Shown piece by piece: positions 15,683 to 56,515 of a DNA stretch of 56,668 bases (its first letter is position 1; each line of letters opens with the position of its first letter). The translations under genes were made by a program, and so were the position numbers. The stretch covers positions 48,875-105,542 of the forward strand of contig NZ_HE578927.1 in NCBI RefSeq assembly GCF_000313565.1. Direction: 5' to 3'. The notes under the pieces were generated by a model, which was not told the DNA's origin, searched no databases, and saw nothing but the letters and a program-made list of their open reading frames with translations. The DNA is from Dielma fastidiosa. GTDB taxonomy: Bacteria; Bacillota_I; Bacilli_A; Erysipelotrichales; Erysipelotrichaceae.

Positions 15683-16603
15683 TTATTCACCGGCTAATTC
15701 TAAGATTTCAGCCATCGTTTCAGCACTGATCACAGCACTGCCGCTGCCAATCGGCGTACCGTCACTCATGCTGCTTTCTTCAACCTTTTCAAACAAGGTG
15801 ACCATCAGTGCCATGTCTGGTTTTAAAATACTCTTGCTTACTTCAAAGTAAGCGCCCTGACCGCTGCCTGTCACATCGACCTCGATGCGGAAAATCTGAC
15901 CATCCGGCGCGTTGGCAAAAATCATTGTCAGATCTGATGATGACTCATAGCTGATCGTAAAGCGCAGATTGCCGTTATCCATATCCTGAACCTTGATTTC
16001 ACTGATTGAGGCAATACCCGCAAGCTGCCCCATATCTTCTGTAAAATCAAGAATTACACCATCTTTCAAATCTTTATCCTTAGATGGTTTTTTATCATCA
16101 TCACTGGCAATCGGTTTATCTTCAGGCTGGTGATTATCCGGCTGCTGGCTGTTATTTTGGTTATTCTGATTGTTTTGGCCATTGTTGTTATTATCGACAA
16201 TTGGCGGTGTCGGATCTGACGGTGACTGCATCGCCTTATAAATCATAAACCCGCCGCCGGCAACTAACAGAACAACAAGCGCTACCGCCGCCACCGTTAA
16301 GATTACCGGCAGACGGCTTTCTTTTTCAGCCGGACGCGGCCTTGACGGCTTGGCCTGTTCACGAATCGGCTTTGGCTCCTTGCCTGCCTGACGCTGAGGC
16401 TCACTGAACTTAGGAATCGTTACCGGTTCTTCTTTTTCCGCCATTGGCGTATCCTCAAACAATTCATTCATGACAGCGCTGATTTCATCCTTTTCATCCT
16501 TTTCAGCTCTGACTATTTTAGCTCCGCAATTGGGACAGAAATTACATGACTCATCAATTTCACTTCCGCAGTGGGAACAAGTTTGCTTTTTTAATTCAGA
16601 CAT
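15683..16603 (-). CDS. Zinc-ribbon single-pass membrane protein
   Basis: A 306-residue protein beginning at MSELKKQ, set by AGGAGG seven bases upstream; an earlier in-frame ATG would place this site inside the gene. The N terminus is a zinc ribbon (CSHCG and CPNCG), followed by a charged, proline-rich linker, a membrane helix at about residues 100-125 (LPVILTVAAVALVVLLVAGG), an Asn/Gln-rich linker and a C-terminal beta-rich domain outside the cell. This zinc_ribbon_2 plus membrane plus low-complexity layout is common in Bacillota; the function is unknown. Confidence 0.8.
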   Translation of the reverse strand: MSELKKQTCSHCGSEIDESCNFCPNCGAKIVRAEKDEKDEISAVMNELFEDTPMAEKEEPVTIPKFSEPQRQAGKEPKPIREQAKPSRPRPAEKESRLPVILTVAAVALVVLLVAGGGFMIYKAMQSPSDPTPPIVDNNNNGQNNQNNQNNSQQPDNHQPEDKPIASDDDKKPSKDKDLKDGVILDFTEDMGQLAGIASISEIKVQDMDNGNLRFTISYESSSDLTMIFANAPDGQIFRIEVDVTGSGQGAYFEVSKSILKPDMALMVTLFEKVEESSMSDGTPIGSGSAVISAETMAEILELAGE

Positions 16604-31481: not shown

Positions 31482-32954
31482 TTATCTGAATAATGCTAAT
31501 ATGGCGGTTAGCTGACATTCTTTAATACTCGCTTTTCCTATATTCTTACCAATCGCTGCCCATTGCTCTGTTTGTGTTTGCTTTTCTTTTACGAACACTC
31601 GATATTCTCTCAAGATCTTCTCTTTGTAGCCGATCCCTTTTCTTGCGATCACATAACTCGCTGCCTGATGCACACTCATTCCCTTATCCCGTACATACTT
31701 CAATTTTCCAATCAGTGACGTATACGCTGGATCAACTTTGATCACTTCAACTCCTTCATAAGCTGCTTTTCGCTCGATGGCTTCACTGATCTGTGCATAA
31801 GCAAACTCACTCAGCATTCGATTCAGTCCTTTTGGCTGATAACGCTGCTTCCGCTTTTTATCACTAAAGTCCAAGGCTTCCATCACTAATGGTTTATGGG
31901 TATCTACACATTCATGAATGATCTTGCTCGCTGTTTCTGCAATCATATGCTTTCGCTGATTCCTTGTCTTTCCCTTTAACTTCATCGGCAGGATCTGCTG
32001 TCTGCACAGATTGCCTTGCCGATCGATGTGGGCAACCGCGATATGATCCACATTGATATCGATACCGATACTGCCTTCTTCCTTTTTAGTCACTATCATT
32101 TTGGGTTCCACCTCAATGATCGCTTTGATGATGAAATACTCACCATGGTCATAGAGTTCATAAGCTACGGCTTTACCAGCGGTATTATGCGGTAATCTGA
32201 CTGCTCTTTCTAATTTCTCTGCATGATGATAGAAACGAATTGGTAAATGAACCTCTTTCTCTGTGCCTCGATAAACCATGATCCCGGATTCAAGATGATA
32301 TTTAAAGAGATTGTTGCTGTATTTTCCCTGCCGTCTTCCCGTTATCAGCATCCGCTTTCTTCTTTCATACCGATAAGCTTCAAGATTATGATGAAGCTTC
32401 TTCCTAGAACCAAAGCAAGCGGCTCTCACACCTAAGTTCAAATGATTCAGCTTATCCGTTTCCCGGTTTAATTTAAAGGTCAACAACCCGATTCTATGCT
32501 TCAGCTGTTTGATATTCGGACTGACGATCTGTACCTCATACAAATAGTCTGTTTTACTAGTTTCATGTTCCTTGCTTTTTTGAATTAATTGTTCTTTCTG
32601 TTTCTGCCAGTTCTGTAAAGACTTGTTATCCTTGCGAATCTTCTCTTTGATTCTTTCAATCCGTTTAGTACATTCTTTCTTCAATCGCTGATTAGTTTCA
32701 ATATTACTTTTAAGCAAGGCTCTGGCTTCATGTATTGCAGATAAAGGAAAGTAATCATTCGTACCATATCTTGCTTTTAACTGTTTTTCTAAAGAGACAG
32801 CTTCTTTGACACCATAAAAACAAGTTAAATAGAGTTTCTTATAGGCAGTATGCAGCATAGAATTATACAGGATCAAATCCTTCTTAATACAATTCGCATC
32901 CTCTTCTGATAACTCTTTATAATAGAAGCGATTTGAATAAGATAAACACTTCAT
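31482..32954 (-). CDS. TnpB-related (IS200/IS605 OrfB-type) protein lacking the zinc finger
   Basis: A 490-residue protein with an N-terminal basic helical region (coiled coil about 80-160) and a RuvC-like C-terminal half. RuvC I is present as GIDINVDH (D299) and RuvC II as MEALDF (E359). The VDPAYTS strand is followed by LIGKLKY and SVHQAASYVIARKG in place of the usual CxxC...CxxC finger and DxNAA third motif; no CxxC occurs anywhere. It fits the TnpB-related accessory group, possibly without nuclease activity. The start is set by AAGGGGGGAA. No tnpA is nearby. Confidence 0.82.
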   Translation of the reverse strand: MKCLSYSNRFYYKELSEEDANCIKKDLILYNSMLHTAYKKLYLTCFYGVKEAVSLEKQLKARYGTNDYFPLSAIHEARALLKSNIETNQRLKKECTKRIERIKEKIRKDNKSLQNWQKQKEQLIQKSKEHETSKTDYLYEVQIVSPNIKQLKHRIGLLTFKLNRETDKLNHLNLGVRAACFGSRKKLHHNLEAYRYERRKRMLITGRRQGKYSNNLFKYHLESGIMVYRGTEKEVHLPIRFYHHAEKLERAVRLPHNTAGKAVAYELYDHGEYFIIKAIIEVEPKMIVTKKEEGSIGIDINVDHIAVAHIDRQGNLCRQQILPMKLKGKTRNQRKHMIAETASKIIHECVDTHKPLVMEALDFSDKKRKQRYQPKGLNRMLSEFAYAQISEAIERKAAYEGVEVIKVDPAYTSLIGKLKYVRDKGMSVHQAASYVIARKGIGYKEKILREYRVFVKEKQTQTEQWAAIGKNIGKASIKECQLTAILALFR

Positions 32955-33179
32955 GGATGTTCCCCCCCTTGAACAAAAAAGCATCCACTGAGATTCGATT
33001 GATACAAAGGAAACTAGGTGATGCTTAGGTTGAATTTAATGATTAAATAGATTGTTTTTTGTTACTCATAGTATACCATATTCACAAGATGATTTCATCT
33101 GTTTTTTGTAATTTTTTAGATACCTTTTCATGATGAGATATTAAACCTTTGATGCTTGAAAATGCAATTTCCTATAATA
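32955..33179. repeat. Upstream flank of the TnpB-related gene with hairpin
   Basis: Gene-free. A stem AAGCATC/GATGCTT (32,979-32,985 and 33,020-33,026) with a 34-base loop lies just before the gene and may be the left-end hairpin of an IS605-like element. The remainder is AT-rich with nothing else recognised. Confidence 0.45.
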
Positions 33180-41887: not shown

Positions 41888-42778
41888 ATGATTGATCCTA
41901 AAGTAATGACACTGCTGGCATTAGCTGAAAATTGCAGCTATACCAAAACCGCTAAAAAAATGGCACTCACTCAGCCAGCGGTAACCCATCAAATTAAGCT
42001 GCTGGAAGAAGACTATAAAATAAAATTATTCCGCCGCGATAAGAAAAAACTGGTCCTTACGCCGGAAGGTGAGGTTCTGGTTAAATATGCCCGGCGAATG
42101 AGCGCGCTGAACGACAACTGCCGGCAGGCAATTGAAGATACCCGGATGTCAGTACACAGCCTAAATATCGGTATGACACCGACTGCTGAAGAAACCATCG
42201 TACCTCATGTTGTTGCCCGCTACTGTAATATGCACAATGATATTCACTTCAATGTAACCACAGATGCTATAAATAATATTTATGATAAGTTAAAAAATTA
42301 TGAATTAGATTTAGCTATTGTGGAGGGAAATCTTTTCAATCCTAAATTTACCTCGGTACTTTTAGATACTGATTACCTGTGCGTTGCTGTTTCAAAGGAG
42401 CATCCAATCGCAAAAAGTAAACGAAAAAGCATCTCTTTACAGGAATTAAAGAAAGAAAATTTTATTTTGCGTTCTCGCAGCGCAGGTACTAGACAGCTTT
42501 TTGAAAATCAGCTTGTCTCTCACTATGAGCATATTAAAAATTTTAATATCATATTGGAACTGGACAATGTCACGACGATTAAAGAACTCGTTGCCTCTAA
42601 TTTTGGTATTACGATTATTGCTCACAGCGCCTGTACCCGTGAAATAGCTAAAGGAACATTAGTAACACTGCAGATTGAAAACATGAATCTGACCCGTGAA
42701 ATTAATATGGTATATCACAAGGATTTCAAACACCTGGATATGCTTGATGATCTTAAAAATCTCTATGAATCAAAATAA
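41888..42778 (+). CDS. LysR-family transcriptional regulator
   Basis: A 296-residue LysR-type regulator: N-terminal helix-turn-helix (SYTKTAKKMALTQPAVTHQIK, in two blocks near residues 15-36) and a two-lobed effector domain from about residue 90. The start is the ATG behind GAAGG at 41,888; the upstream ATG lacks a site. It is divergent from the antiporter and probably controls it; the ligand is unknown. Confidence 0.92.
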   Translation: MIDPKVMTLLALAENCSYTKTAKKMALTQPAVTHQIKLLEEDYKIKLFRRDKKKLVLTPEGEVLVKYARRMSALNDNCRQAIEDTRMSVHSLNIGMTPTAEETIVPHVVARYCNMHNDIHFNVTTDAINNIYDKLKNYELDLAIVEGNLFNPKFTSVLLDTDYLCVAVSKEHPIAKSKRKSISLQELKKENFILRSRSAGTRQLFENQLVSHYEHIKNFNIILELDNVTTIKELVASNFGITIIAHSACTREIAKGTLVTLQIENMNLTREINMVYHKDFKHLDMLDDLKNLYESK

Positions 42779-42798
42779 AAGAGCGCGAGCTCTTTTTA
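42775..42798. terminator. Bidirectional terminator LysR/DUF1307
   Basis: An 8-bp stem AAAAGAGC/GCTCTTTT (42,777-42,784 and 42,789-42,796) shared by the convergent ends of the LysR gene and the surface cluster. Confidence 0.8.
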
Positions 42799-43248
42799 TT
42801 CATTTTCTGTGCATTCAAGACCCATTTCACGATTCATGGCTAAAGTTTCCTTGATGCCGATTTGGGTTGTTGTTTCATCAGCATTGCGGACAATGCCGAT
42901 GGCAGACAATTCTTCAATCGATGCCGCTGTAAAATCAATATATAATGTCTCAATAAAGAATTGATCATCAATCTCATAGCTATATTCTATTCCCTTGACA
43001 GTGCGATAAATAGCTGCCGCTACTTCAGCCGTAGCCGTTAATTCATCAGCGCTTACCGCACTCATATCCAACTGAACTACATTCACATTCTTCTGCGTTT
43101 TCACATAATTATCATCATGTTCAAAAATGGTTGTGACCGCCGCGCCGCCGGCATTCATCGTACAGACGCTTTCCTGAAGCTCATTGACCGACGCTGACTG
43201 ACAGCCGCAAAGCAGTAAAATCATTAACCCTATACTAATTTTCTTCAT
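42796..43248 (-). CDS. DUF1307 (YehR-like) lipoprotein, downstream copy
   Basis: A 150-residue lipoprotein: signal peptide with LCGC lipobox (Cys16) directly followed by a DUF1307 domain (VCTMNAGGAAVTTIFEHDDN through GLECTENE). It is a paralogue of the 54,394-54,933 gene but lacks its proline-rich linker. Only 19 bases separate it from the GT2 gene, so it is likely the last gene of the surface cluster. DUF1307 has no established function. Confidence 0.85.
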   Translation of the reverse strand: MKKISIGLMILLLCGCQSASVNELQESVCTMNAGGAAVTTIFEHDDNYVKTQKNVNVVQLDMSAVSADELTATAEVAAAIYRTVKGIEYSYEIDDQFFIETLYIDFTAASIEELSAIGIVRNADETTTQIGIKETLAMNREMGLECTENE

Positions 43249-43267: not shown

Positions 43268-44227
43268 TTATACTTTTTTGCTTAATAAATATCGATTTAA
43301 TAATCGGCAGGCACGCTCATAACCAAGCAACGCAACCAACCGCCGGCAGCCTTTTGCCTTTTTATCTGACGCATAATTTAAAATATCTTTTGCGCTGGCA
43401 GTCTGTTTTTGACCTTCATCACTCAGATAAGGAACAAACTCCAACAATGAGGCATATTGAAAAGCAAGAAATGCATCCACAGCTTTTTCACTCCCTGCTT
43501 CATGATCATGAATACAGCGCAGCACTACTGTCTTAAAATCATCAGCGATGCGTTCATAGCGCTGAGTAATCGTATTGCTGTGCTGACGGTAGCAATGCAA
43601 AACATGGGGGCATAATGCGATTTGGGGATTTAAACGCATCAGCTTCACATTCCACTCAATATCCTCACAATAAGTATTCGCTTCAAACCATAATTCACCA
43701 TCAATCAATAAACTTCTTTTCAACACCCGGTTCCATGCGCAGCCAAGTGGATAATTGTATCGAATCATTTCATTAAACAGCTGATTTTGAGGGGTGTCAG
43801 CATTAAGCAGACGCTTTAATACATGCGGTGTCCGATTGAACCAGTGGCTGATATCCTTCTTTGATTCAAAGAAAATCACATCCTTTTGATCCTTCAAATA
43901 CTTGTTCAGACAGCTGAATACCCGCTCATCCGCCAGCCAGTCATCACTGTCTAAAAATAAGATATACGATCCTCTTGATGCTTTTAAGCCATTGTTGCGC
44001 GCCACTGACAAGCCTTGATTCTTTTGATGAAGCACATGTACAAATGGAGTATCTGATGCATAACGATCACAGAGCAGTGAGCTACCATCCGTTGATCCGT
44101 CATCCACAAGTATAACCTCATAATCAAAACAAGCTTGCTGATGCAGTACACTTTGCATACATGCCGGCAGATACTGCTTGGTATTATAAACCGGAATGAT
44201 GATACTCAGTAAAGGTTCAGTCCGCAT
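43268..44227 (-). CDS. Family 2 glycosyltransferase
   Basis: A 319-residue GT-A fold glycosyltransferase. The nucleotide-sugar region begins LLSIIIPVYNTKQYLPACMQ, with VDDGSTDGS, the DxD-type FLDSDDWL and the later CEDIEWNVK (the usual ED base motif). It would add a sugar to the lipid-linked glycan begun by the split PGT. It overlaps the O-antigen-ligase-family gene by 11 bases. No membrane helix; peripheral enzyme. Confidence 0.9.
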   Translation of the reverse strand: MRTEPLLSIIIPVYNTKQYLPACMQSVLHQQACFDYEVILVDDGSTDGSSLLCDRYASDTPFVHVLHQKNQGLSVARNNGLKASRGSYILFLDSDDWLADERVFSCLNKYLKDQKDVIFFESKKDISHWFNRTPHVLKRLLNADTPQNQLFNEMIRYNYPLGCAWNRVLKRSLLIDGELWFEANTYCEDIEWNVKLMRLNPQIALCPHVLHCYRQHSNTITQRYERIADDFKTVVLRCIHDHEAGSEKAVDAFLAFQYASLLEFVPYLSDEGQKQTASAKDILNYASDKKAKGCRRLVALLGYERACRLLNRYLLSKKV

Positions 44228-45560
44228 AGTTTCTCATTTTTGACTCATTTAATTGCTGTCCCGCGCCCAAACCAAGCAGTATCCATAAAAGATGCGCACT
44301 CAGCATATAGCTGATCCCGAAGAAAGCCTGAACTAAATAACCGCAAACCGCAAAAAGACAAGCGGCGCTGACCCAGGTTGCCTGTTTGCTGATAAAGCGC
44401 TGAAGAATGTTTTTCAAACAAGTGCCATAGATACTCAAAAGACACAGCAGCATCGGCAGACCCATGGTTAAAAGAACTTCAAGATATTCGTTGTGCGCTT
44501 TATCATAATACTGAGCATTATTTAATGGATAAACAGAATGATAAAGCAATCCGAATGTATCAGGGCCGCTGCCTAACAGCCATGTTTGTGGAATAAATTT
44601 TAATGCGTTCTTCCACACCAGATAACGGCCTGAGCCAGATTTTTCACTGATTGTCTCGCCCAAAAGCGGCCCCAGGCCATCCTGAAGCTGCTGTATAAAA
44701 CGCTGCATCAACGGGTGATTTGTCACAAGCATAATAAGCAGTACAAGAAGTATGGCAGCCGTTCCTAAAATCGTCAGCTGACCTGAATCCATGCGCCAAT
44801 GGGGACGCCGCTTCCATTCCTTAAGCATGACTGTTATCATCAGTAAAAAAACAACACATAATCCCAAAAGGCCGCCCATTGCTTTCGTCATTAAAACAAT
44901 AGTTATGGAAAACATAAGACTGCCTAAGAAAAACAATTCTTGCCGCCAGTTTTGAGCCATTATAAAGCCAGCTGCGCCGACACCGCTCAGCATTACCATA
45001 TTAGCCGCCAGAAAATTGGCATTGCCGCATAAACCGGGCACTAATTTTACCTCACGGTACAGCTCACTGTAATATGTCAGTCTTGGCATGATTTCAAAAT
45101 ATTGAATGATTGTATAAATACCGTTGATTAAACCAGCTCCCAGCATCGCATACAACACCCAGCGGCGATGCTTTTCCTCACAAAGACTTAAACTGCTAAG
45201 CAATAGTGTAAAGTAACAGCACCATGTTGTGAACCCTTCATAACGGCTTGGTTTACCTTGTAAAGAAAAGCTTTGATTCAATGAATTCAGTGCTGACAGA
45301 AAGATCAAACTAATCCCAATCAGCAAAAGTATCAATAATAGCTTTTGCTTAAACCGCATAACCCCCTGGGTCAGTTTAATCAATGTAATAAAAAGCAAGG
45401 CAGCGCTGAATAAATCAAGTACAACTGGAAAATATTCACCGCGCATTAAGATCTGCCGGAATATAACGCTGATGGGCATCATAAAGATTAACGCAATCAG
45501 CAAATAAGTACCGCCCAGCTCACAAAATCGATAGATAAGGTTTCTGTCTTTTTCTTTCAC
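44217..45560 (-). CDS. O-antigen ligase / Wzy-family membrane protein
   Basis: A 447-residue protein with about ten to twelve membrane helices and a large external loop holding SGRYLVWKNALKFIPQTWLLGSGPDTF and the YDKAHNEYLEVLLTMG block; these are the Wzy_C/WaaL signatures. Members polymerise lipid-linked glycan units or ligate them to lipid or, in some Gram-positives, to protein. It starts at GTG behind AGGAGGC. Position next to a PGT and a secreted protein makes protein glycosylation a candidate role. Confidence 0.88.
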   Translation of the reverse strand: MKEKDRNLIYRFCELGGTYLLIALIFMMPISVIFRQILMRGEYFPVVLDLFSAALLFITLIKLTQGVMRFKQKLLLILLLIGISLIFLSALNSLNQSFSLQGKPSRYEGFTTWCCYFTLLLSSLSLCEEKHRRWVLYAMLGAGLINGIYTIIQYFEIMPRLTYYSELYREVKLVPGLCGNANFLAANMVMLSGVGAAGFIMAQNWRQELFFLGSLMFSITIVLMTKAMGGLLGLCVVFLLMITVMLKEWKRRPHWRMDSGQLTILGTAAILLVLLIMLVTNHPLMQRFIQQLQDGLGPLLGETISEKSGSGRYLVWKNALKFIPQTWLLGSGPDTFGLLYHSVYPLNNAQYYDKAHNEYLEVLLTMGLPMLLCLLSIYGTCLKNILQRFISKQATWVSAACLFAVCGYLVQAFFGISYMLSAHLLWILLGLGAGQQLNESKMRNYAD

Positions 45561-45646: not shown

Positions 45647-48352
45647 TTATTCTATAATCATTACAGTATCTGCAGCGCCATGGTATGTATTTCCGTTATA
45701 GATTACACTGCCATTGCTGCCAGCATTAAGCTGTAATGTTCCACTGCCGGTAAATGTACCTTCAATGGTTAATACAGCACCGTTATTCAGCTGTAATACA
45801 TTTGCTTCATTCAGCTCACCAGCCGTCATAGTTTCTGAACTGTTGATTGGATAGACTTCTGACAATCCGGTAGCTTTCAGATAGTCAGCAACTGAGCCAA
45901 GATAAACAAGCTTCACATTATCTCCCTGTAAACCTGTTGTGCTGAGATCAGCGATTGCGTTGCCTGTGCTGTCTTTCCATACTAATCCATTGGCTTTTAA
46001 TGTTTCAGCGCCGCTGATCAGCATCTTCGTGCTGTCCAAAACAGTACCTGCACTGCCTATAACTCTGAATTCAGGATGCAGCGTTAATTTACCTGATGTA
46101 TTTGCATTGCTGACCGTTATTGTATTGCCATTTGCATTCAATTCACCAAATAAGGTCATGGTCATATTATCAGCGACAGTTATTGTTTTATTAGCAATCA
46201 ATTTCACATCGCCAACCTCAACATCACTTTCGACCATATATGCCGTACTAGTATCATCACTCAAATATGCTGTCAGCTTCGTACTGTCAGTGCTGGCAGT
46301 CTGTGAAGTTACAGTTACGGTGATTGAACCAATCTGAGCATTGCTTAAATTGCCATTTGGTACGCCGCCCATAACCAGATAGAAATTCTGGCTGTCACTG
46401 CCGCCGCCGGCACTCGATAAGGCCAGATAAGTGCCTGCTGCGTAAGATGCTTTGCCAGCGTAATCTTTTTCATTACTGTCGGTCTTATCAGCACCCGCTT
46501 CCTTATAGAATGCACCTGAATAATTCTTATCCAGCTGTAAATTCAGCTTCGCATTTACCGATGCATTTGATTTATTAATAACATTAATCAGATTGTTTGT
46601 ATTATCATTACCATTCCAGCCTAATTCATTGCCTGCAGACGGTAATGTTTCACCTTTACCAGCATCATAGCTGCCGCGGTCATAAACAAACTCCATATCA
46701 CCCCAGTTGAGCTCAACCTTATAGCTGATATCACCGGCAGTTGTCAAATAGATTGGAATCTCAATGCTGTTGGTAGCCGCACCATCTGAGAAACGTGTCC
46801 AAGCCGAGGCGACAACACCGCCTATTGATGAAGTAAAGGTTTCCGTTTTGGCAACAACTGGTTCTGCTGGAGTAGAGAATAATTTAGCCATTGAGCCTGG
46901 CTCTGCTGTATAATTCACACTCATTGTCTCTAAAGGATTGGCGAGTCCGCTCAGATCCTTACCCCGCAGTGAACCGGCAGCTCCTGTATAGCTTTCATCC
47001 GCACCTACTTGAATATTATAAGTTGTTGAATCAACAGTGATCGAATTATATCCAGAACCTGAAATAGCGCTGACTAGAGATAATTCATAGTTAGTTAATA
47101 AGCCTTTTAATGAACCGGAATATCCGTGAGTATCATTCAGCAAATCTAATTTAAATAACTGCTGAGCATCCTTAAATTCTTTTAATCCCTCATAAATAGG
47201 ATAGCCTGATGTATCGACATCGGCATAATACAAGTTATAGGCTCCCCTTACACTTGAATTTTTAATTGATGATGTAGTCATACCACCTAATTTACTTTGA
47301 TCCGGAATCGGCTCACCTGTAATCCCAGCTATCCCGCTGATTAATGCATATCGGCGCATAACGCCATCATTAAGTTTGACAGACGGAGTGCTCTGAAGTC
47401 CGGCGTATCGGTGACCGCTATCCGATGCCAATAACAAATCAACATTGATATTCATTGCTGCATTACTGATGGTTCCGCGATTGATTGCAGTCAGACCATA
47501 ATAGAAAGGCATACTTGATAAAATTGTCACATTTCCATCTGCACTGACATTTGAAACAGTGCCATGATTTTCCATTATCAAGCCAAAACCCGTCGCACTG
47601 CCTCTGTAGTAGTCGGTTAAGTAAGACTCCATTGGTATTAAATTTGTGCTTACGAATTTATCAATAATCTGTACATTAATATCCCTGAATGTAACATTCT
47701 TAAATTCACCATCATTATTCAACATAAAATAATTCTCACCTAAGAAATATCCGCCCACATTCTTAGATGCGTTATAGCCACTTAAGTTTGAAATACCCCA
47801 GTCATCAGTACCATCTTTATCACCGCTATATGTACGCTGAATAGTTAAGTTGCTGATTATTTTATCATTACCATTAAAATTTCCTTTAAAGTCTACAATA
47901 TTACTGCCTGTCGAAGGGGCATAAAAATAATCAGAAGTTTGAGGACTTGAACCGGGAAAAGTTGCTGTATATGTCGCTTGAGTAGTACCACTATATATAG
48001 CTATACCACCTATACCAACCCACTGCTTGCCAGCTAAATCAATATCGTTCATTAATTTGATTGTCGCATCTCCAACTTCAGCAGTACCATAACTTACACC
48101 ATCCACAGTTACTCCACCGGTCATTAAATATGACACGAAGCCTAATCCGGTAGCTGTCATAACCTGAATTTCAGATACCACATGACTACTGCTGTCTTCT
48201 ACAAATCGATAATCTTTTCCCTTTTCCGCTGACTTACCCGCTTCAAACCAAGTTTCAGCCGTTGCGGCTGCCTGTACCTGTGTTGGGAAAACAGCTAATA
48301 TCATTGCTAATGCAATAAAAAACGCACCAAGTTTTTCTATTAACTTTTTCAT
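45647..48352 (-). CDS. 901-aa secreted surface protein with GLUG-like region and WGD/GNDN domain
   Basis: A signal peptide (about 1-28, cleaved near VQAAA) is followed by a GLUG-like beta-helix region (about 90-330; blocks such as NDIDLAGKQWVGIGG and FKGNFNGNDKIISNLTI), a linker, a domain with WGD at 550-552 and WNGNDNTNN at 579-587 running to about 690, and a C-terminal beta-rich part. No LPxTG, S-layer homology or membrane anchor is seen. Very rich in Ser, Thr, Asn and Gly, so a possible glycosylation target. Follows the PGT gene after a 130-base structured spacer. Confidence 0.82.
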   Translation of the reverse strand: MKKLIEKLGAFFIALAMILAVFPTQVQAAATAETWFEAGKSAEKGKDYRFVEDSSSHVVSEIQVMTATGLGFVSYLMTGGVTVDGVSYGTAEVGDATIKLMNDIDLAGKQWVGIGGIAIYSGTTQATYTATFPGSSPQTSDYFYAPSTGSNIVDFKGNFNGNDKIISNLTIQRTYSGDKDGTDDWGISNLSGYNASKNVGGYFLGENYFMLNNDGEFKNVTFRDINVQIIDKFVSTNLIPMESYLTDYYRGSATGFGLIMENHGTVSNVSADGNVTILSSMPFYYGLTAINRGTISNAAMNINVDLLLASDSGHRYAGLQSTPSVKLNDGVMRRYALISGIAGITGEPIPDQSKLGGMTTSSIKNSSVRGAYNLYYADVDTSGYPIYEGLKEFKDAQQLFKLDLLNDTHGYSGSLKGLLTNYELSLVSAISGSGYNSITVDSTTYNIQVGADESYTGAAGSLRGKDLSGLANPLETMSVNYTAEPGSMAKLFSTPAEPVVAKTETFTSSIGGVVASAWTRFSDGAATNSIEIPIYLTTAGDISYKVELNWGDMEFVYDRGSYDAGKGETLPSAGNELGWNGNDNTNNLINVINKSNASVNAKLNLQLDKNYSGAFYKEAGADKTDSNEKDYAGKASYAAGTYLALSSAGGGSDSQNFYLVMGGVPNGNLSNAQIGSITVTVTSQTASTDSTKLTAYLSDDTSTAYMVESDVEVGDVKLIANKTITVADNMTMTLFGELNANGNTITVSNANTSGKLTLHPEFRVIGSAGTVLDSTKMLISGAETLKANGLVWKDSTGNAIADLSTTGLQGDNVKLVYLGSVADYLKATGLSEVYPINSSETMTAGELNEANVLQLNNGAVLTIEGTFTGSGTLQLNAGSNGSVIYNGNTYHGAADTVMIIE

Positions 48353-48426
48353 TTAATTCTCCTTTCAATCTCGCTTTTTTCTAATTCCATACTGTAATGC
48401 TTAATTTTTATCGTTTCGCCCCCTCC

Positions 48427-48479
48427 TTTGCTTTTCCGTCAAAAAGCCTGAAATTCAGACTTTTAAACAGAAAAGCAAA
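48427..48479 (-). terminator. Nested hairpin between the PGT and 901-aa genes
   Basis: Outer 10-bp stem (48,427-48,436 with 48,470-48,479) encloses an inner stem (48,442-48,464) containing GTCTGAA/TTCAGGC and followed on the minus strand by TTTTT. The inner part can act as a terminator; forming the outer stem would compete little with it, so partial read-through is likely. GGAGGGGG follows with no start codon at the proper distance. Confidence 0.65.
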
Positions 48480-48482
48480 AAT

Positions 48483-49055
48483 TTACTCACTGCGATGCTT
48501 CTCAAAAATTACCATAACGGTTTTCATTAAGATCAACAGATCCAGCATCAGCGTCTGTTTCTGGATATAATACAAATCAAAAGCAAGCTTACTTTCAATA
48601 TCACTGCTGTACCTTCCCATTACCTGCGCATAGCCTGTCAGTCCCGCTTTCACACTTGTCCGATATGAAAATTCCGGTAATCGCTTGATAATCTCATCGG
48701 CTAATTCCGGACGTTCTGGACGCGGCCCAACTAAACTCATCTCACCTTTTAACACATTCATCAGCTGCGGCAATTCATCGATTCTCAGTCTCCGCAAAAT
48801 TCTGCCAACCTTGGTGACACGCTGATCCTCAGCATCACTTATTCGCGCGATGCCGTCGGCCTCCGCATTCACCCTCATACTGCGAAGTTTAATTACCTCA
48901 AAGCAGTGATTTCCCTGCCCATAGCGGCGCTGGCGGTAAAAGATCGGCCCGCCGTCCTCAAGATAGATGCACAATGCCGCGATTCCCATCAGTGGCGAAG
49001 TAATAATCAGAAGCAGCATGGAGATAACAATATCCATCACACGTTTAGAGAGCAA
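48483..49055 (-). CDS. Polyprenyl phosphoglycosyltransferase, catalytic half
   Basis: A 190-residue monotopic PGT domain (bacterial sugar transferase, PglC/WcaJ-C type) that transfers a sugar phosphate from a nucleotide sugar to undecaprenyl phosphate, starting a surface glycan. It has the re-entrant helix (about 6-30 with the SP kink), the catalytic D93-E94 in RIDELPQ and PRPERPE at 111-117. It starts at TTG behind AAAGGAAGG, 19 bases inside the preceding gene. In larger relatives this domain is fused to the domains encoded by that gene. Confidence 0.92.
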
Positions 49056-49726
49056 AGCCTTCCTTTTTGCTGATGACTCATTAATAAATCACTGACAACT
49101 ACCGTATCGCCGCTCAGCAGCACATCTTTGATTTCACAGCGTTCATACCATTCCCTGCCTAGTTCAAAACAAAGCTGATTTAATCGATAACGTTCTGCCG
49201 TACTGATTTTTTCAACAAGCAGTCCATCTACAGCTTTCAGCCTTTCTGCGTCAACTGCTTCTGATGACAGTTTATCTACAATCTTAAAACGATCAGCACG
49301 CGCTCTAAACTCATAAAGTGCCAGCCCAGACTCACCGACGTGAATCAATGTTTTACAGCCATGCCGATTTTGATAATAATGATCCACCGCTTTGCTCCAG
49401 ATCAGTGCCCATATCAGCTGCGTACCGATTAAAAGCAGCAGCGGCAGCAGATTCATAAAACGATAGGCAATCAATGATATTTCTAAATAAAGCACCGGCG
49501 CGCTGATTAAGCTGCTTAAGCTATGTATAAATAAGATTTCATCACGGCTTTTCTCCGCTATCTGATAACCGCCATTGATTATCTTAAAGACTTCAAGTTC
49601 AAGCAGTGCCAGCATGATGATTACCACATTACCCCAAAAGTAATAATAAATGGTTTCACCATAACCAAATTCCCAAAATATCGTGATAAAGATCAGCTGT
49701 GCCAATAAGTCAATCCAACCGCTCAT
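49037..49726 (-). CDS. Membrane and Rossmann-like half of a split WbaP/WcaJ-type transferase
   Basis: A 229-residue protein with about four membrane helices in the first 130 residues, then a CoA-binding-like nucleotide fold (GCKTLIHVGESGLALYEF onward) cut short before the catalytic domain. It matches the N-terminal part of polyisoprenyl glycosylphosphotransferases. The catalytic part is the next gene, overlapping by 19 bases in another frame. Start overlaps the preceding stop as ATGA. Either a natural split or an old frameshift. Confidence 0.75.
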   Translation of the reverse strand: MSGWIDLLAQLIFITIFWEFGYGETIYYYFWGNVVIIMLALLELEVFKIINGGYQIAEKSRDEILFIHSLSSLISAPVLYLEISLIAYRFMNLLPLLLLIGTQLIWALIWSKAVDHYYQNRHGCKTLIHVGESGLALYEFRARADRFKIVDKLSSEAVDAERLKAVDGLLVEKISTAERYRLNQLCFELGREWYERCEIKDVLLSGDTVVVSDLLMSHQQKGRLCSLNV

Positions 49727-50784
49727 CGAATCTCAATGCCTACCGGCAGCTGACTGTTCAGCAATGCCTTTTCCTGACTTTCACTGTCATAAAACACTAA
49801 TTCAATAATTCCCTTATAAGTACCCGGCGGCAAATCGGTGCCGTCCTGTAAAGCATTCAGTGTCAATGTCTCAAGTCTTGAACCAGCCGGTACCCGTCCG
49901 GAAACAGCTAAATCCTGACGGTATGTTTCAGGATCATATTCCCCTAATACTTCAAGGCGTTTTTGATCAAGAAAGGTTCGATGATTGACACCTAGCTTAT
50001 CGATCAGCTCCTGATCACTGATTGTCAGCTTCACAACAATGTCCTGGGTAGAATTGCCGGGATTGTAGAAGGCCAGCTCGCCGATCCCGTCGGTAAAGAC
50101 AATCAGCCGGTTAAATTCAAATGCCGCTGTATTACCATTCTGGGGTTTAAGGCCATCATGAATTGCCTGCACATTTCCATCAACCGGAACCGATGGATAA
50201 GGGATACCCAGCTTCAGCAGCAACAGCAGCAGCGGGATAAGAAACAGCAGCAGAAACCACGGCCTTTTATGTTCATGAATCAATCCCACCGCATAATTTT
50301 TAATCAGAATCCCATCACGGTTCTTCCCAACCAGGCCGCCGGCGTACTTTTTAGCTTCAATGCGGATGGCACTGCCGCAGCAGCTGATGATACCGCCTTC
50401 CATCATCCCAGCGATACCGCCGCTGTATTCGGCCCCCTGTATCATACCGTCAACAGTGAGATTAACGATCTTCGCATCCTTAAGACAGCCAAATAAACCG
50501 CCGTATTTTCGTTTCCCTTTGATTTTAAAATTGGTAATGCTGTGATTGCCGCCATCAAATATACCCTTGAAAGGAAGCGCATCATCTTCCCCAATTGGTA
50601 TGAGTTTCTTGCCTTGAAAATCAAGATCAGCGGTAAGCCGGCAGGCCGCATATTGATATTGGCGGTTGCCTCGATTCACACCATCCGCAAAGGCTGTAAA
50701 ACCTTCAATGCTGTCAATTTCAATCCATTCATCAGCAGCGCCGCTTTCAATGTGAAATGCATCTTCCTTGAATCGACGCGGCAC
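49723..50784 (-). CDS. GLUG-repeat membrane protein, C-terminal part after frameshift
   Basis: The frame is open upstream to about 50,883, well before the GTG at 50,784 used for the 353-residue count, so this is the larger part of a frameshifted gene. It has GLUG-type repeats (YGGLFG, SGGIAG, AGGLVG; about 60-165), a basic HEHKR then one membrane helix (176-195), and an extracellular beta-sandwich-like domain to the end. The positive-inside rule puts the GLUG repeats in the cytoplasm, contrary to the usual case. Stop overlaps the next start (ATGA). Confidence 0.72.
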   Translation of the reverse strand: MPRRFKEDAFHIESGAADEWIEIDSIEGFTAFADGVNRGNRQYQYAACRLTADLDFQGKKLIPIGEDDALPFKGIFDGGNHSITNFKIKGKRKYGGLFGCLKDAKIVNLTVDGMIQGAEYSGGIAGMMEGGIISCCGSAIRIEAKKYAGGLVGKNRDGILIKNYAVGLIHEHKRPWFLLLFLIPLLLLLLKLGIPYPSVPVDGNVQAIHDGLKPQNGNTAAFEFNRLIVFTDGIGELAFYNPGNSTQDIVVKLTISDQELIDKLGVNHRTFLDQKRLEVLGEYDPETYRQDLAVSGRVPAGSRLETLTLNALQDGTDLPPGTYKGIIELVFYDSESQEKALLNSQLPVGIEIR

Positions 50785-50843
50785 TTCATCACGGTTCCAT
50801 GTCCGCTCATAATCCCAGGGCAGGTTTTGAATTGATTCAGAAT

Positions 50844-51125
50844 CTAAAGCCAGCTCACTGTCCGCAAATTCCTTTTTCTTTTTTTACGGTCATCAATATA
50901 GAAGATATGTTCCATGATGCCTTCATTTTTAGCTGCAAAGCCGGCCATGATTTTTCCCCGCTTTGAATCTGTTTGACACCAGCTGTTATAAATCTCACCA
51001 TAGTTACAGCCAATAAAACCGCCGCTGCTTTGTCCGCCGCTAAGCTTCACCATGGCATAGCAATCTTTAATATAACTGTTGCTGAGGCCAGCCAGACCAC
51101 CCATAAGACATATCTTTTTCTTCAT
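50844..51125 (-). CDS. GLUG-repeat protein, N-terminal part before frameshift
   Basis: A 93-residue open frame starting at ATG 51,125 behind GGAGGAATAAG, one base after the upstream stop. It opens with a GLUG repeat (GGLAGLSNSYIKDCYAM) with no signal peptide, has a second (SGGFIGCNYGEIYNSW), and reads out of frame after KKRKR at an A7-G-A5 run (50,873-50,885). Adding one A to the seven-A run would join it to the following frame as one protein of about 475 residues. Frameshift mutation, sequencing error or slippage. Confidence 0.65.
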   Translation of the reverse strand: MKKKICLMGGLAGLSNSYIKDCYAMVKLSGGQSSGGFIGCNYGEIYNSWCQTDSKRGKIMAGFAAKNEGIMEHIFYIDDRKKRKRNLRTVSWL

Positions 51126-51126
51126 C

Positions 51127-51657
51127 TTATTCCTCCAATGCATCAATCCAAGATGTTTTCACACGCAGCACGCCGGCTGAATAATGGGTGCCCTGTTCAT
51201 AAGCCAAAACCTCGACGCGAAACTGTTTTTCAAGTGCTTTGACCTTGATTCCAGCCAGCATCTCTCCCGGTGAAAGCAAGCCGCTTTTAGCTTTTATTTG
51301 ACCCTCTTGATCAAGAATCACTAACTGAATATCAACCTTACTTTCTGGCTGATTCATTAAATAAATCATCAATTCATCCTGTTCATATACCGGGGAAATA
51401 CAAAAGCCTGTCACATAGCCTTCATTTACTTCATAGATTTGATAACGCATGCGCTCATCAAGCATAGATGGATCAATCAATACCTGTGCTTTGGGCTCAT
51501 GGCGCGGCAGCAGGAAGCCATCCCATCGATATACCGCCAGCAGCATCATGAGCAGAAGCAGCAAGCAGCTAACCGCAATCTGAAAGCGGCGCTTTTTATA
51601 CTGCGCATTACTGCGGCTGCTCGTCAGCTGTTTCATTTGTGTCATTGGCTTTGACAT
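51127..51657 (-). CDS. Single-pass membrane protein of the surface cluster
   Basis: A 176-residue protein with a basic N terminus (KKRRF), one membrane helix at about 25-43 and an extracellular beta-rich domain. The domain (ELMIYLMNQPESKVDIQLVI through YSAGVLRV) looks weakly like the external domain of the GLUG membrane protein (ELAFYNPGNSTQDIVVKLTI through GTYKGIIELV), so the two may interact. It starts at ATG 51,657 with AAAGGAAG, inside the last 50 bases of the preceding gene. No family recognised. Confidence 0.72.
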   Translation of the reverse strand: MSKPMTQMKQLTSSRSNAQYKKRRFQIAVSCLLLLLMMLLAVYRWDGFLLPRHEPKAQVLIDPSMLDERMRYQIYEVNEGYVTGFCISPVYEQDELMIYLMNQPESKVDIQLVILDQEGQIKAKSGLLSPGEMLAGIKVKALEKQFRVEVLAYEQGTHYSAGVLRVKTSWIDALEE

Positions 51658-53299
51658 CCGCTTCTTCCTTTCGATAAATCAGCTTGACAGCCGGTGTGCC
51701 AGCCGTAGTTTCTTCACCCAGCAAATCAATAAACCGATAAGCATTCAAGTCCTGATGACTGCCTGCTATCAGTGAACTATCTTCATCACATTCCGCCAAA
51801 ACATCACCATCCAACGCATCAACCGCCTGAAACTGATCAAAGCATAACGTACCGCCGCCGCTGACACGATAAATATTTCCATTCATTTCATGCTCGCCGC
51901 TTAAAATCAAAGTCTCTCCTTTTTCAATCGTAAGATCAAATGCTTCAGCTGGTTCGTTTAAATTCTGCGGCTCATTTTCCATCGATGTCACAGTTAAGCT
52001 TAAAGAGCCGATTTGTTTTTGATGCTTATACTGATCAAGATCCGGATTTCCTGAAAGTACGACATAGAGGTCAAGCTGAGTCGGAAGATTGCTGGCGGCC
52101 GCGATCAGTTCTTCCTCATATGCCGCTAATTCACACATATCATAATCATATTCATCACTGCCATCACTTTTACTGCCGGCAGTCTTATAAACATCACCCT
52201 TAATATTTCCATCATCAAGCTGCAGCTCATGGGTGATCATAACCGGAAATAATGAATAATTATTAACCCGGATATGATTGTTTAAATTATCATTGCCCTG
52301 CCATGACATACGATCACCATCATAGCTGTAACTCAAATCGCCCCATTCTATCTGAACCTGATATTTGTCTGATTCCGCATAAAGGAAGGGACTGGCTGGC
52401 AGATAATAATACAGAATCTGCTGATTTAAAAATTCAGCGTGCTGGTCAATATTGGCAAATTCAATCCACGCTGTCTGCGGCAGCTTATTCCCCTCCCGTG
52501 TTATTAAGGTCAGCACATCGCCCGTATTCGTCATGAATCGTGAATTCTGTGCATTCATTTCAGCATCACCAATCAAATCAATCATTGTATAAGCCTGCTT
52601 ATCCGCACTTTGAGAATAAATCTGAATACCGGCTTCTGATCCGGCAAAAAAGGCATAGGAGCTGACTGCAAGAAAGGGTGCTGACATTGAAGAGGCAGCT
52701 TTAACACTTAACATGCCCGCGTGTTCACTCTCACTGATTAGCTGAAACGATGAACAGCGCAGCGGTGTAAAGTTACTATCCTCATCAATGACGATTGTCA
52801 GCTGATGGCCATTAAGATCGATACTTAAAAATTCAGTGTCAGCATTTGGCAGATCAGCGGCATTTACTGAAACATCACTCAGCAGTGTCAAGCGAATGTC
52901 TTTTTCCTGTGCCAGACATTCCCGAAAGCCTAAAGCGTCCTCGACCTCACACACCCCGTTTGTATCGGGCAATGATGGTTCTGCATTGGTATCTGAAGGC
53001 TCAGCAGGCAGCGGATCATTTTCAATAATATCTGATGAACTGTCACTGTCACTTGCGGTATCATCTGGCAAAATATCCCCTGCTGTTGCTTCATTTAAAT
53101 CTTCACCTTGATCCGCCTCTTGATAATCGCTGTCCTCATCGGCTGATTCATGATCAGCACTCTCCCCCTCATCTTCAAGAACCTCATTGCCTGTATCCTC
53201 CCATTCTTCAATTTCTAAGAAAGAATGCATTGGCATTGAAGAAAGCAGGCAGAAGATAAGTAATACAAGCTTCCCCTTTCCAATAATGGCAGCAAACAC
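51608..53299 (-). CDS. Secreted acidic surface protein with WGD/GNDN domain
   Basis: A 563-residue secreted protein starting at GTG behind AGGAG. The signal peptide is at about 1-28; residues 30-110 are strongly acidic (Asp, Glu, Ser), then come beta-rich parts. WGD at 319-321 and WQGNDNLNN at 333-341 begin a domain also found in the 901-aa protein, continuing to QIGSLSLTVTS near 455 and followed in both by a NGN strand. No wall anchor. It precedes and overlaps the membrane protein gene. Confidence 0.78.
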   Translation of the reverse strand: MFAAIIGKGKLVLLIFCLLSSMPMHSFLEIEEWEDTGNEVLEDEGESADHESADEDSDYQEADQGEDLNEATAGDILPDDTASDSDSSSDIIENDPLPAEPSDTNAEPSLPDTNGVCEVEDALGFRECLAQEKDIRLTLLSDVSVNAADLPNADTEFLSIDLNGHQLTIVIDEDSNFTPLRCSSFQLISESEHAGMLSVKAASSMSAPFLAVSSYAFFAGSEAGIQIYSQSADKQAYTMIDLIGDAEMNAQNSRFMTNTGDVLTLITREGNKLPQTAWIEFANIDQHAEFLNQQILYYYLPASPFLYAESDKYQVQIEWGDLSYSYDGDRMSWQGNDNLNNHIRVNNYSLFPVMITHELQLDDGNIKGDVYKTAGSKSDGSDEYDYDMCELAAYEEELIAAASNLPTQLDLYVVLSGNPDLDQYKHQKQIGSLSLTVTSMENEPQNLNEPAEAFDLTIEKGETLILSGEHEMNGNIYRVSGGGTLCFDQFQAVDALDGDVLAECDEDSSLIAGSHQDLNAYRFIDLLGEETTAGTPAVKLIYRKEEADVKANDTNETADEQPQ

Positions 53300-53304
53300 G
53301 CTGA

Positions 53305-53904
53305 TTAACTCCTGCGCTGTGCATTGATGCTTTTAATTAGATCGTCAACATTCGTCTCTGACTGCTTTGAAACAGGGATTTCATTACAGACGGTTTGCAT
53401 TGGTAGATCCTCTGCATCAATGATTGTTTCCTGTATCGGGGTTTGTTCCTTAATGGCGGCTTCTTTCTTGATTGTCTGCGGATATAGCTGTTTCACTTTT
53501 TCAACAGCGGCATTGATACTGCTTTCTAAAGGAATCTCCCGCAGTATCTTGGTTGAATAAAGCATATACATCTCTTGTGAATTCTCTATGGTTTTACGCA
53601 TCTTTTCAGCCGTATGCAAAAGATCGATAAAATTAGTACGCATTTCCTGAATTAAGTCTGCCTTTACCTGTTCCGCTTCAGCCCGTATCATTTTGCTGTC
53701 AGCCTCTGCCTTAGCAAGAATCTCAGCCGCCCGCTGCTCTGCTTCATGGATAATCTGATCACTGCGGTTTTGTGCATTCAGCATTAAACGGCTGATTGCC
53801 AGATGTTCATTTTGATATTGGGTGTCCAGCTCATTGAGATATTGATCTACCTCAGTTTTTGAATAACCATTGAATACTGTTTTAAATTTCACTGTTTTAT
53901 CCAT
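53305..53904 (-). CDS. DivIVA-domain coiled-coil protein
   Basis: A 199-residue DivIVA-like protein. The N-terminal membrane-curvature domain (FKTVFNGYSKTEVDQYLNEL) is followed by a coiled coil over about 22-120 and a less ordered tail. DivIVA/GpsB proteins gather at negatively curved membrane at division sites and poles and recruit wall or envelope enzymes. As first gene of the surface cluster, five bases before the surface-protein gene, it may place the glycan machinery in the cell. This is not the usual ylm/divIVA location, so it is a dedicated paralogue. Confidence 0.82.
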   Translation of the reverse strand: MDKTVKFKTVFNGYSKTEVDQYLNELDTQYQNEHLAISRLMLNAQNRSDQIIHEAEQRAAEILAKAEADSKMIRAEAEQVKADLIQEMRTNFIDLLHTAEKMRKTIENSQEMYMLYSTKILREIPLESSINAAVEKVKQLYPQTIKKEAAIKEQTPIQETIIDAEDLPMQTVCNEIPVSKQSETNVDDLIKSINAQRRS

Positions 53905-55049: not shown

Positions 55050-55089
55050 AAAATACCTTTCAATAAATTATACTATTGAAAGGTATTTT
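55050..55089. terminator. Bidirectional terminator at the IS end
   Basis: A 16-bp perfect stem (55,050-55,065 with 55,074-55,089, loop of eight) with A/T tracts on both sides, 23 bases after the transposase stop. Confidence 0.8.
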
Positions 55090-55111
55090 ATTAGTATTTA
55101 TCTAAAAAAGC

Positions 55112-56515
55112 CTAAAAAGTCCCTACACTCACTTTTGACGTTAAATTTTTAACTGAAAATTCTAAAATGAATTTTCTTACGTCAGTTGAACATTCATCTC
55201 TAAACTCTAAAAATTCACGCATACTCATACTGCAAAAGTATTCTCCGCTAAATAATACTAAATAATTTAGAAATTCTTGTTTATAGTTTTTAAGAATTAC
55301 TGGTAAACATTTACCAATGTATTTTTGTCCATCTTCTGTATTTAAATATAACTGATAAAATAGATACCCTAATAACACACATACTAAATGGAATGAGATA
55401 ATATTTAACTTTGTACTCTTGAAATCTTCAAGTTTCCAGAAGTCTTTTAGTTGTCTGAAATCTTCTTCAATTTCAGTTCTCATATTATATATATTGACAA
55501 TATCACTTGCTGACCTATTCATGTCTGTTGTAATAAACACTTCATAAGATTGAGTATCTTCCGACCATACAACACATGAATTTAAGTCAACATCATGCTT
55601 AGAATTTCTAGTTCTAAAATATTCACCTACATTATTAACGTGACAAATCATTTGATCTTTTCTAGTAGGGTGAGGTTGCCAATCGTCAATTTCTTCTGCT
55701 AATTCAATAGCCATTTCATATATTTCCATACTTTTTCTTACTGGGATGTATGTATCTACTTTTCTAACCGTCTTTAAGTAGTTCATCATTTCTCGTGAAG
55801 TGAATCCTCTATCCATTAGTAGGATGTCACCCTCATGGAAACACGGAGTAGTCTTTAACATTTCTTCACTCAACTTAAAATCGTGAATATTAACTGTACC
55901 AAAACGAACATCTTCGATTAAACCACTATCGTTATAGATACCTCTAAGTGAAGCTAGTTTATAACCTCTCATAGAATTGCCTAATCTATCATAACCAAAG
56001 GTTGAACCTTCATAGTTCTCATTATTATAGTTAACTGCTATCTTGGTACAATCTAATATATGAATATTAGTTTCAATATCCATGGTATTAAAGATATGCT
56101 TTTGTACTACATTGTTATAGTAATTGAATATATCCTCAGATTTATATTTACCCAATAAATGTCTGATAGTTCCTTCATTAAACCAACCATCTGACTTATC
56201 TGTACTCATTGCATTATAACCTAATTCAGCTAATGTTCTGTAATCTTGAATAGCATAAGGAATATCCGTTAAGCTGGTTCTGACTTTCATTTTTGAAACA
56301 ATAACTAAAGCCATTATAAACCTTAAAGGAATCGTGGAATTAGTATTTCTCTTATCTGGAAAGCCTTGGTCTAAGTTATCCAAGACACCTTCATGACACA
56401 TAGAAAGTATAATATCATCAATCAAATTACTGTTGCTTACCATAATACCATCTAACACTTTATTTTTTACTTGTTCCATGACTTTGTTTTTATCTTGTTT
56501 ACAAATTCTAAGCAT
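55112..56515 (-). mobile_element. IS4-like DDE transposase
   Basis: A 467-residue full-length transposase. Acidic residues lie in HILDCTKIAVNY (D), ILLMDRGF (D) and the signature YNMRTEIEEDFRQLK, which fits the IS4-family pattern Y-2-R-3-E-6-K. Codon use is more AT-rich than the flanking chromosome. It starts at ATG 56,515 behind AGGAGGTGGG. The terminal inverted repeats could not be paired because the upstream end lies near or beyond the window end; TCCCTACAC near 55,120 and GTGTAGA near 56,650 are candidates. Confidence 0.85.

Follow-up and report, generated by a model that had tools for sequence, protein, structure and literature searches.

What is the domain for that two secreted proteins of one Dielma fastidiosa gene cluster have in common, and does it belong to a larger system? 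The question is raised by a window of 56,668 nucleotides (the whole stretch of DNA analysed here; NCBI RefSeq assembly GCF_000313565.1, contig NZ_HE578927.1, positions 48,875 to 105,542), in which an earlier note had recognised a WGD/GNDN domain, here called WG, in a long and a short protein. We found that this domain is very probably a divergent branch of an unnamed, widespread WG family with fixed partner genes. The open reading frames (ORFs) and motif positions given in the note proved correct (WGD at residue 550, W-x-GNDN at 579 and the closing QIGS at 673 of the long protein; 319, 333 and 429 in the short one), as did its central claim that both proteins carry one shared domain. BLASTP aligned the whole proteins at E 2e-16 (residues 544-823 of the long with 313-548 of the short), with similarity extending beyond the WG domain, via the NGN strand, into the C-terminal part, and the two domains scored 173 against a mean of 33 for shuffled sequences (standard deviation 6; Z 23). 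The genome encodes four WG copies of this type, because a second, paralogous cluster on another contig (G000:C7, locus L005) has its own long (922 amino acids) and short (574 amino acids) protein. Invariant across the four are WG, YD, the second W, G-x-DN, N, Y-K, DY and I-G-S. The motifs follow the same order in both window proteins, as the note had it, but their spacing is not equal: WGD and the second W lie 29 residues apart in the long protein, 14 in the short one, and 29 and 22 in the C7 paralogues.

The two window proteins surround this domain with different material. The long one runs from a signal peptide through an N-terminal beta-rich or GLUG-like part and a mid-protein WG domain to a C-terminal beta-solenoid-like tail, and the short one consists of a hydrophobic N-terminus, an acidic linker, a beta-helix-like domain (residues ~110-270), the WG domain and a C-terminal part. 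WG is internal in both, followed by about 115-210 residues, and neither C-terminus has a sorting signal or a transmembrane (TM) segment.

Whether the family came into view depended on the breadth of the profile. The long and short proteins had no match in Pfam, NCBIfam or PHROG and no PDB sequence match at E 10, and tblastn of the long protein against plasmids and phages gave none either. A profile of the four window-type domains (A1) found no relative in the genome-contig and viral-contig collections, and the genomes most closely allied to the window, those of its own family, likewise yielded none at thresholds of E 0.001 to 0.01, whether searched with A1 (195 genomes) or with the short protein (all 272). 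Candidates at E 0.001-0.1 in 346 genomes of the class were chance matches where read (e.g. EF-G), and those in genomes G062 and G232 were unrelated genes. The A1 profile was too narrow to reach the family. It surfaced through a broader consensus for gut Bacillota (A6, built around WGxMEFTY...GTWNPxTH...ITVTNHSN), which was treated as a lead only and pointed to 43 loci, nearly all in Clostridia (Mediterraneibacter, Blautia, Subdoligranulum, Pseudoflavonifractor and many metagenome-assembled genomes); the earlier suggestion that similar WGD domains occur in gut Bacillota was thus borne out. The profile search proposed at the time, empty with A1, succeeded with a profile built from real Clostridia WG sequences (A7, a 34-sequence alignment), which matched all four window-type proteins. 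As a hidden Markov model (HMM), A7 reached E 9e-17 and 5e-19 for the long proteins of the window and C7, and 1e-6 and 8e-6 for the short ones; the best shuffled ORF came only to about E 1.

Because A6 was composed with the window's sequence already known, the test to trust is a half-domain control, in which the C-terminal half, free of the scan patterns, matched the long proteins at 1.2e-7 (window) and 8e-9 (C7); the short proteins are tied to the family via the long ones. Aligned by hhalign, the window-type domains and the Clostridia WG domains gave a probability of 99.3% at E 2.7e-20. WG members found only scattered noise in Pfam and NCBIfam and no sequence match in the PDB, and within the window's own family the WG profile matched 3 of 272 genomes. 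Small WG proteins are also encoded in two unannotated human faecal 'Bacteriophage sp.' records in GenBank (MT837052.1, 3735-4265, and MT838868.1; 39% and 36% identity).

The usual WG unit consists of a large protein ending in WG, TM-A (~185 amino acids), one to four small proteins made of a signal peptide and WG, and TM-B (~180 amino acids). TM-A and TM-B are one-TM proteins of a single family with two positional subtypes, told apart by EGGGxVSLxY (27/32 TM-A vs 1/27 TM-B) and FxPPxF (0/32 vs 25/27). Genes of this TM family stand at 37 of 45 WG loci; the remaining eight have none within the stored stretch, several of these being cut by contig ends. A genome of the window's family (G010, locus L108) has the four-gene unit as well, and so does the culturable gut commensal Pseudoflavonifractor capillosus An386a (L091); L059:5833-6381 is an example of a small WG protein. 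Of the 39 WG proteins longer than 250 residues, 29 have no more than 30 residues after the domain; some Clostridia members carry it internally, so that an internal position is compatible with belonging to the family. Their cargo parts include GLUG (as repeats in several large WG proteins of Clostridia), LRR_5, aBig_2, Laminin_G_3, MucBP and sub-threshold cohesin, and at 13 loci (e.g. L066 9506-10615, L085 6919-7809) TM-B is directly followed by a protein whose C-terminal end resembles a sorting signal, made up of TGD, a TM segment and a basic tail. A large WG protein with the sub-threshold cohesin match lies in L062 (3757-4716); in L061 (2-4718) a leucine-rich-repeat (LRR) protein whose tail looks dockerin-like by eye precedes a WG protein.

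The window holds both TM partners as well, because the TM-family profile matches the 176-residue one-TM protein (HMM E 8.9e-17, genome-wide E 4.9e-11; hhalign A4 vs A8 98.8%) and the ectodomain of the GLUG-TM protein (HMM E 1.4e-15; hhalign 98.6%). Judged by sequence, it is a permuted arrangement of WG, both TM partners and WG, in which the TM-A-type ectodomain has become joined to GLUG repeats. The same profile matches the C7 counterparts and no shuffled ORF, with genome-wide values of E 2.5e-13 to 4.9e-11 for the window-type TM proteins. A direct profile comparison of the window TM-B with the window TM-A gave no significant match, though both match the joint TM family. This family is commoner than WG, being present in 18 of 195 genomes of the window's family, and can adjoin other small secreted proteins. 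Loci L120-L125 of the same family (genomes G056, G147, G129, G133, G058 and G179) have a TM-family gene beside differing surface genes; L121, L124 and L125 encode a second small secreted domain, of the YxVxLPKxxDVSD type (~140-156 amino acids) and weakly WG-like, which L124 also has in larger proteins (E 1.7e-19). A broader superfamily of units pairing a TM partner with a small secreted protein is likely.

Table 1. Features of the WG cluster in the window, in order of transcription
Feature	Coordinates	Strand	Evidence
DivIVA/GpsB-like coiled-coil protein	53305..53904	-	Pfam DivIVA 1.2e-5, just under the curated cut-off
Short WG protein	51608..53299	-	ORF, 563 aa (amino acids), GTG start as listed
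WG (WGD/GNDN) domain, short protein residues ~300-450	51950..52402	-	BLASTP with long protein, Clostridia WG HMM
One-TM protein, 176 aa, corresponding to TM-B (or to TM-A, its paralogue); ectodomain beta-sandwich-like	51127..51657	-	TM-family HMM
GLUG-TM protein: N-terminal GLUG repeats, one TM, TM-A-type ectodomain	49723..51125	-	Frame analysis, C7 paralogue
TM-A-type ectodomain of GLUG-TM protein	49726..50169	-	76% identical between clusters
Polyprenyl-phosphate sugar transferase (WcaJ-like)	48483..49726	-	Pfam Bac_transf 7.7e-65
Long WG protein	45647..48352	-	ORF, 901 aa
WG (WGD/GNDN) domain, long protein residues ~525-690	46283..46780	-	Clostridia WG HMM, hhalign
O-antigen ligase/polymerase-like membrane protein (Wzy_C)	44217..45560	-	Pfam 5.6e-20
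GT2 glycosyltransferase	43268..44227	-	Pfam 6.3e-36
Putative DUF1307 lipoprotein, closing the cluster	42796..43248	-	Pfam 7.1e-14

Given a conserved domain with conserved partners, what might the domain do? The structural models place it loosely. Built from a four-sequence input and with a predicted local distance difference test (pLDDT) score mostly of 40-60 there, the WG regions of both proteins aligned to Ig-like or PapD-like sandwiches (GAE, ASH/MSP and Csu/Fim/Caf1) at Z 5-7. The beta-sandwich of the earlier note is in this way weakly upheld; the predictions gave no sign that the two regions fold differently, which the note had named as grounds for refutation, though this is not in itself proof of the fold. 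Foldseek returned no match at E 0.001 for either model. Other parts were modelled with higher scores, namely the tail of the long protein (pLDDT 80-93) and residues ~115-215 of the short one (77-92), whose top structural rows were beta-helix tailspikes; the short-protein model also gave rows of carbohydrate-binding-module-like and beta-helix type.

Small and large WG proteins differ just ahead of the domain. A strand of the pattern [VIL]x[AG]x[YF], ~15-20 residues before the W, is present in 54 of 60 small WG proteins, as against 5 of 27 C-terminal WG domains of large proteins (Fisher p 8e-11, a value that overstates independence since the sequences are related; the contrast spans loci). Such an asymmetry would be that expected of pilin and tip pairs in donor-strand fibres (TasA/TapA, Fim). 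The long window protein has a strand, IEIPIYL, at about this position before its WG domain; it is identical in the C7 paralogue and does not match the strict small-type pattern.

Our best explanation, with about an even chance of being right, is that the products of the WG unit form a surface assembly of Ig-like subunits held at the membrane. WG would be an Ig-like beta-sandwich serving as the assembly domain and the small secreted WG protein a repeating or bridging subunit, while the large surface protein, with its LRR, GLUG, MucBP, lectin or cohesin-like parts, would enter the structure as tip or cargo because it ends in a WG domain. TM-A and TM-B, with their beta-sandwich ectodomains, would start, chaperone and/or anchor the assembly at the membrane. 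As for the window, subunit and tip or cargo would be supplied by its long and short WG proteins, the products of 51127-51657 and of the GLUG-TM gene would be the TM partners, and the sugar-transferase/Wzy/GT2 set would be an addition whose products may attach sugars to the assembly or synthesise a polysaccharide that goes with it. Strand complementation of the TasA/TapA kind would be the most likely way for subunits to join. Self-assembly, which the earlier note had proposed, would fit the pairing of large with small proteins, the presence of TM partners and the N-terminal strand, but polymerisation itself is something we infer, as we do the surface location, the strand exchange, the role of each protein and any glycosylation.

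Several observations weigh against such an assembly. The WG-region models, made from four sequences at low pLDDT and with all Z below 8, perhaps reflect only a common arrangement, and the N-terminal strand limited to small proteins could be just the first strand of a monomeric fold. The window itself departs from the standard unit: its WG domains are not C-terminal, the order is WG, TM-B, TM-A, WG, its cluster has no small single-domain WG protein, the strict small-type strand pattern is absent from its WG proteins, and two of its cluster genes, for the GLUG-TM protein and the sugar transferase, are frameshifted.

Known surface systems share parts of this design. In the TasA fibres of a Gram-positive host, subunits are joined through an N-terminal donor strand, and TapA starts the process (PMC9674648, PMC10151520). 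Like WG, the TasA/TapA system of B. subtilis (camelysin family) combines a small secreted sandwich subunit bearing an N-terminal strand with a monoderm host, and its accessory Ig-type protein, which starts assembly, can be set beside the WG partner proteins (PMC9674648, PMC10151520); unlike it, the WG system includes a pair of one-TM proteins and a large protein with a WG tail. No Pfam match to camelysin/TasA was found for 34 WG members at E 0.1 or for the window proteins at E 1, nor any PDB chain at E 10, and the window cluster has no SipW-type signal peptidase among its genes. Chaperone-usher pili (Fim, Csu, Caf1) likewise join an adhesin part to a C-terminal subunit-type domain and use small one-domain subunits, and the WG models align with their subunits at Z 5-6.7, too low to claim the fold; in contrast to these pili, the WG host is a monoderm, the partners are membrane-anchored, and no outer-membrane usher was found among the scanned cluster genes. 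Sortase pili also encode a large tip-like protein and repeated subunits in one operon, and a sorting-signal-like protein follows at the 13 WG loci mentioned above; the WG proteins inspected have no sorting signal or C-terminal TM segment, and no sortase gene was seen in the loci read. The sub-threshold cohesin match in L062 and the dockerin-like tail of the LRR protein in L061 recall cohesin/dockerin display, but neither the WG nor the TM family belongs to cohesin, dockerin or SLH.

Some of these features would also fit a domain used for docking and anchoring only, one that clamps large surface proteins to TM-A and TM-B, with the small WG proteins as adaptors and no polymer. Large proteins with nothing else in common have WG at their very C-terminus, the usual anchor position in Gram-positives; the window WG proteins end in neither a TM segment nor a sorting signal; L062 joins a sub-threshold cohesin to WG and the LRR protein of L061 adjoins a WG gene; and a TGD-type anchored protein is next in line at the 13 loci. 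Docking alone leaves unexplained why a locus should have one to four paralogous small WG proteins, and why these exclusively conserve an N-terminal strand, and we consider it rather unlikely. Glycan attachment, also raised by the earlier note, would make the WG proteins acceptors of an O-oligosaccharyltransferase formed by the sugar transferase, the GT2 enzyme and the Wzy-like protein, all three of which both paralogous clusters keep, placed either between the WG genes or behind them. In a comparison with 45 WG loci elsewhere, however, the Wzy, GT2 and DivIVA-like proteins were unmatched and the sugar transferase had one match, and because the glycan genes are virtually unmatched there the WG domain is independent of them. 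The cluster also has no flippase, and Wzy_C proteins polymerise free polysaccharide as well. With glycan genes confined to this genome's two clusters among the loci compared, attachment is unsupported as the general role of the domain and improbable. Ig-like stalk domains are common in surface proteins and the putative assembly function of WG is drawn from sequence and gene context, but that WG is just one more adhesin stalk repeat, spread by recombination and without assembly function, has little probability, because the domain has a fixed set of partner genes and is mostly single-copy, C-terminal or alone, rather than tandem.

The cluster in which the window's WG genes lie spans 53904 to 42796 on the minus strand, its genes mostly overlapping or closely spaced in the order DivIVA-like, short WG, 176-residue one-TM, GLUG-TM, sugar transferase, long WG, Wzy_C, GT2 and DUF1307 lipoprotein, and with a terminator-like hairpin (42777-42796) directly after the last. 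The C7 cluster has the identical order, a DivIVA-like gene being first in both (36% identity). Gene by gene, conservation between the clusters is highest in the GLUG-TM ectodomain (76%), and the WG proteins (38% for the long, 41% for the short) are among the least conserved. The long and short proteins are homologous, as the notion of a duplication within the operon implies, but this was not a local event: the pairing of large and small WG proteins is old and common to Clostridia and the same-family genome. A separate cluster of capsule or exopolysaccharide type (L039; G000:C13 258-9740) has its own Wzy, sugar transferase and Wzx-like flippase, and might provide the flippase that the window cluster lacks. 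Giant open frames with GLUG repeats (4943, 4410 and 4427 amino acids) occur on contigs C6, C9 and C12 of the same genome.

Frame breaks at A-runs affect both clusters. The window copy of the GLUG-TM gene loses its frame at an A7 run (50879-50885) where the C7 copy is a single 468-amino-acid ORF, the window sugar transferase is split into two ORFs near an A5 run (49064-49068) where the C7 copy (L005) is one ORF of 416 amino acids, and in C7 it is a GT2 gene that is broken at an A7 run (L005 ~15880-15893). All three breaks fall within the two paralogous clusters, and eleven further A/T runs of at least seven sit in intact window genes. Recent mutation, phase variation or assembly error may account for the breaks; programmed frameshifting was rejected, there being no standard slippery heptamer in frame. 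Read by eye, the window also contains, upstream of the cluster, a transposase-like ORF next to an inverted repeat (55050-56515) and, further from the cluster, a TnpB-like ORF (31482-32984).

For these bacteria, the WG genes amount to a four- to five-gene surface system common to Lachnospiraceae, Oscillospiraceae-type Clostridia and the window's family, unnamed in Pfam and NCBIfam; we found no published account of it in the open-access papers searched. Small WG, TM-A and TM-B together provide defined genes on which the idea of widespread donor-strand assembly in Gram-positives can be examined. It is possible, though on balance doubtful, that the system represents a kind of surface filament of gut Bacillota that has not been described before, with small Ig-like WG subunits, exchangeable FimH-like tips (LRR, GLUG, mucin-binding, lectin or cohesin) and two membrane-anchored assembly proteins, its TM partners also serving at least one other small-subunit family in genomes of the window's family. 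If so, chaperone-usher logic would extend in monoderms far beyond TasA. Should fibres or adhesin display be true, common gut bacteria would have a sortase-free way to grip mucus, food particles and each other.

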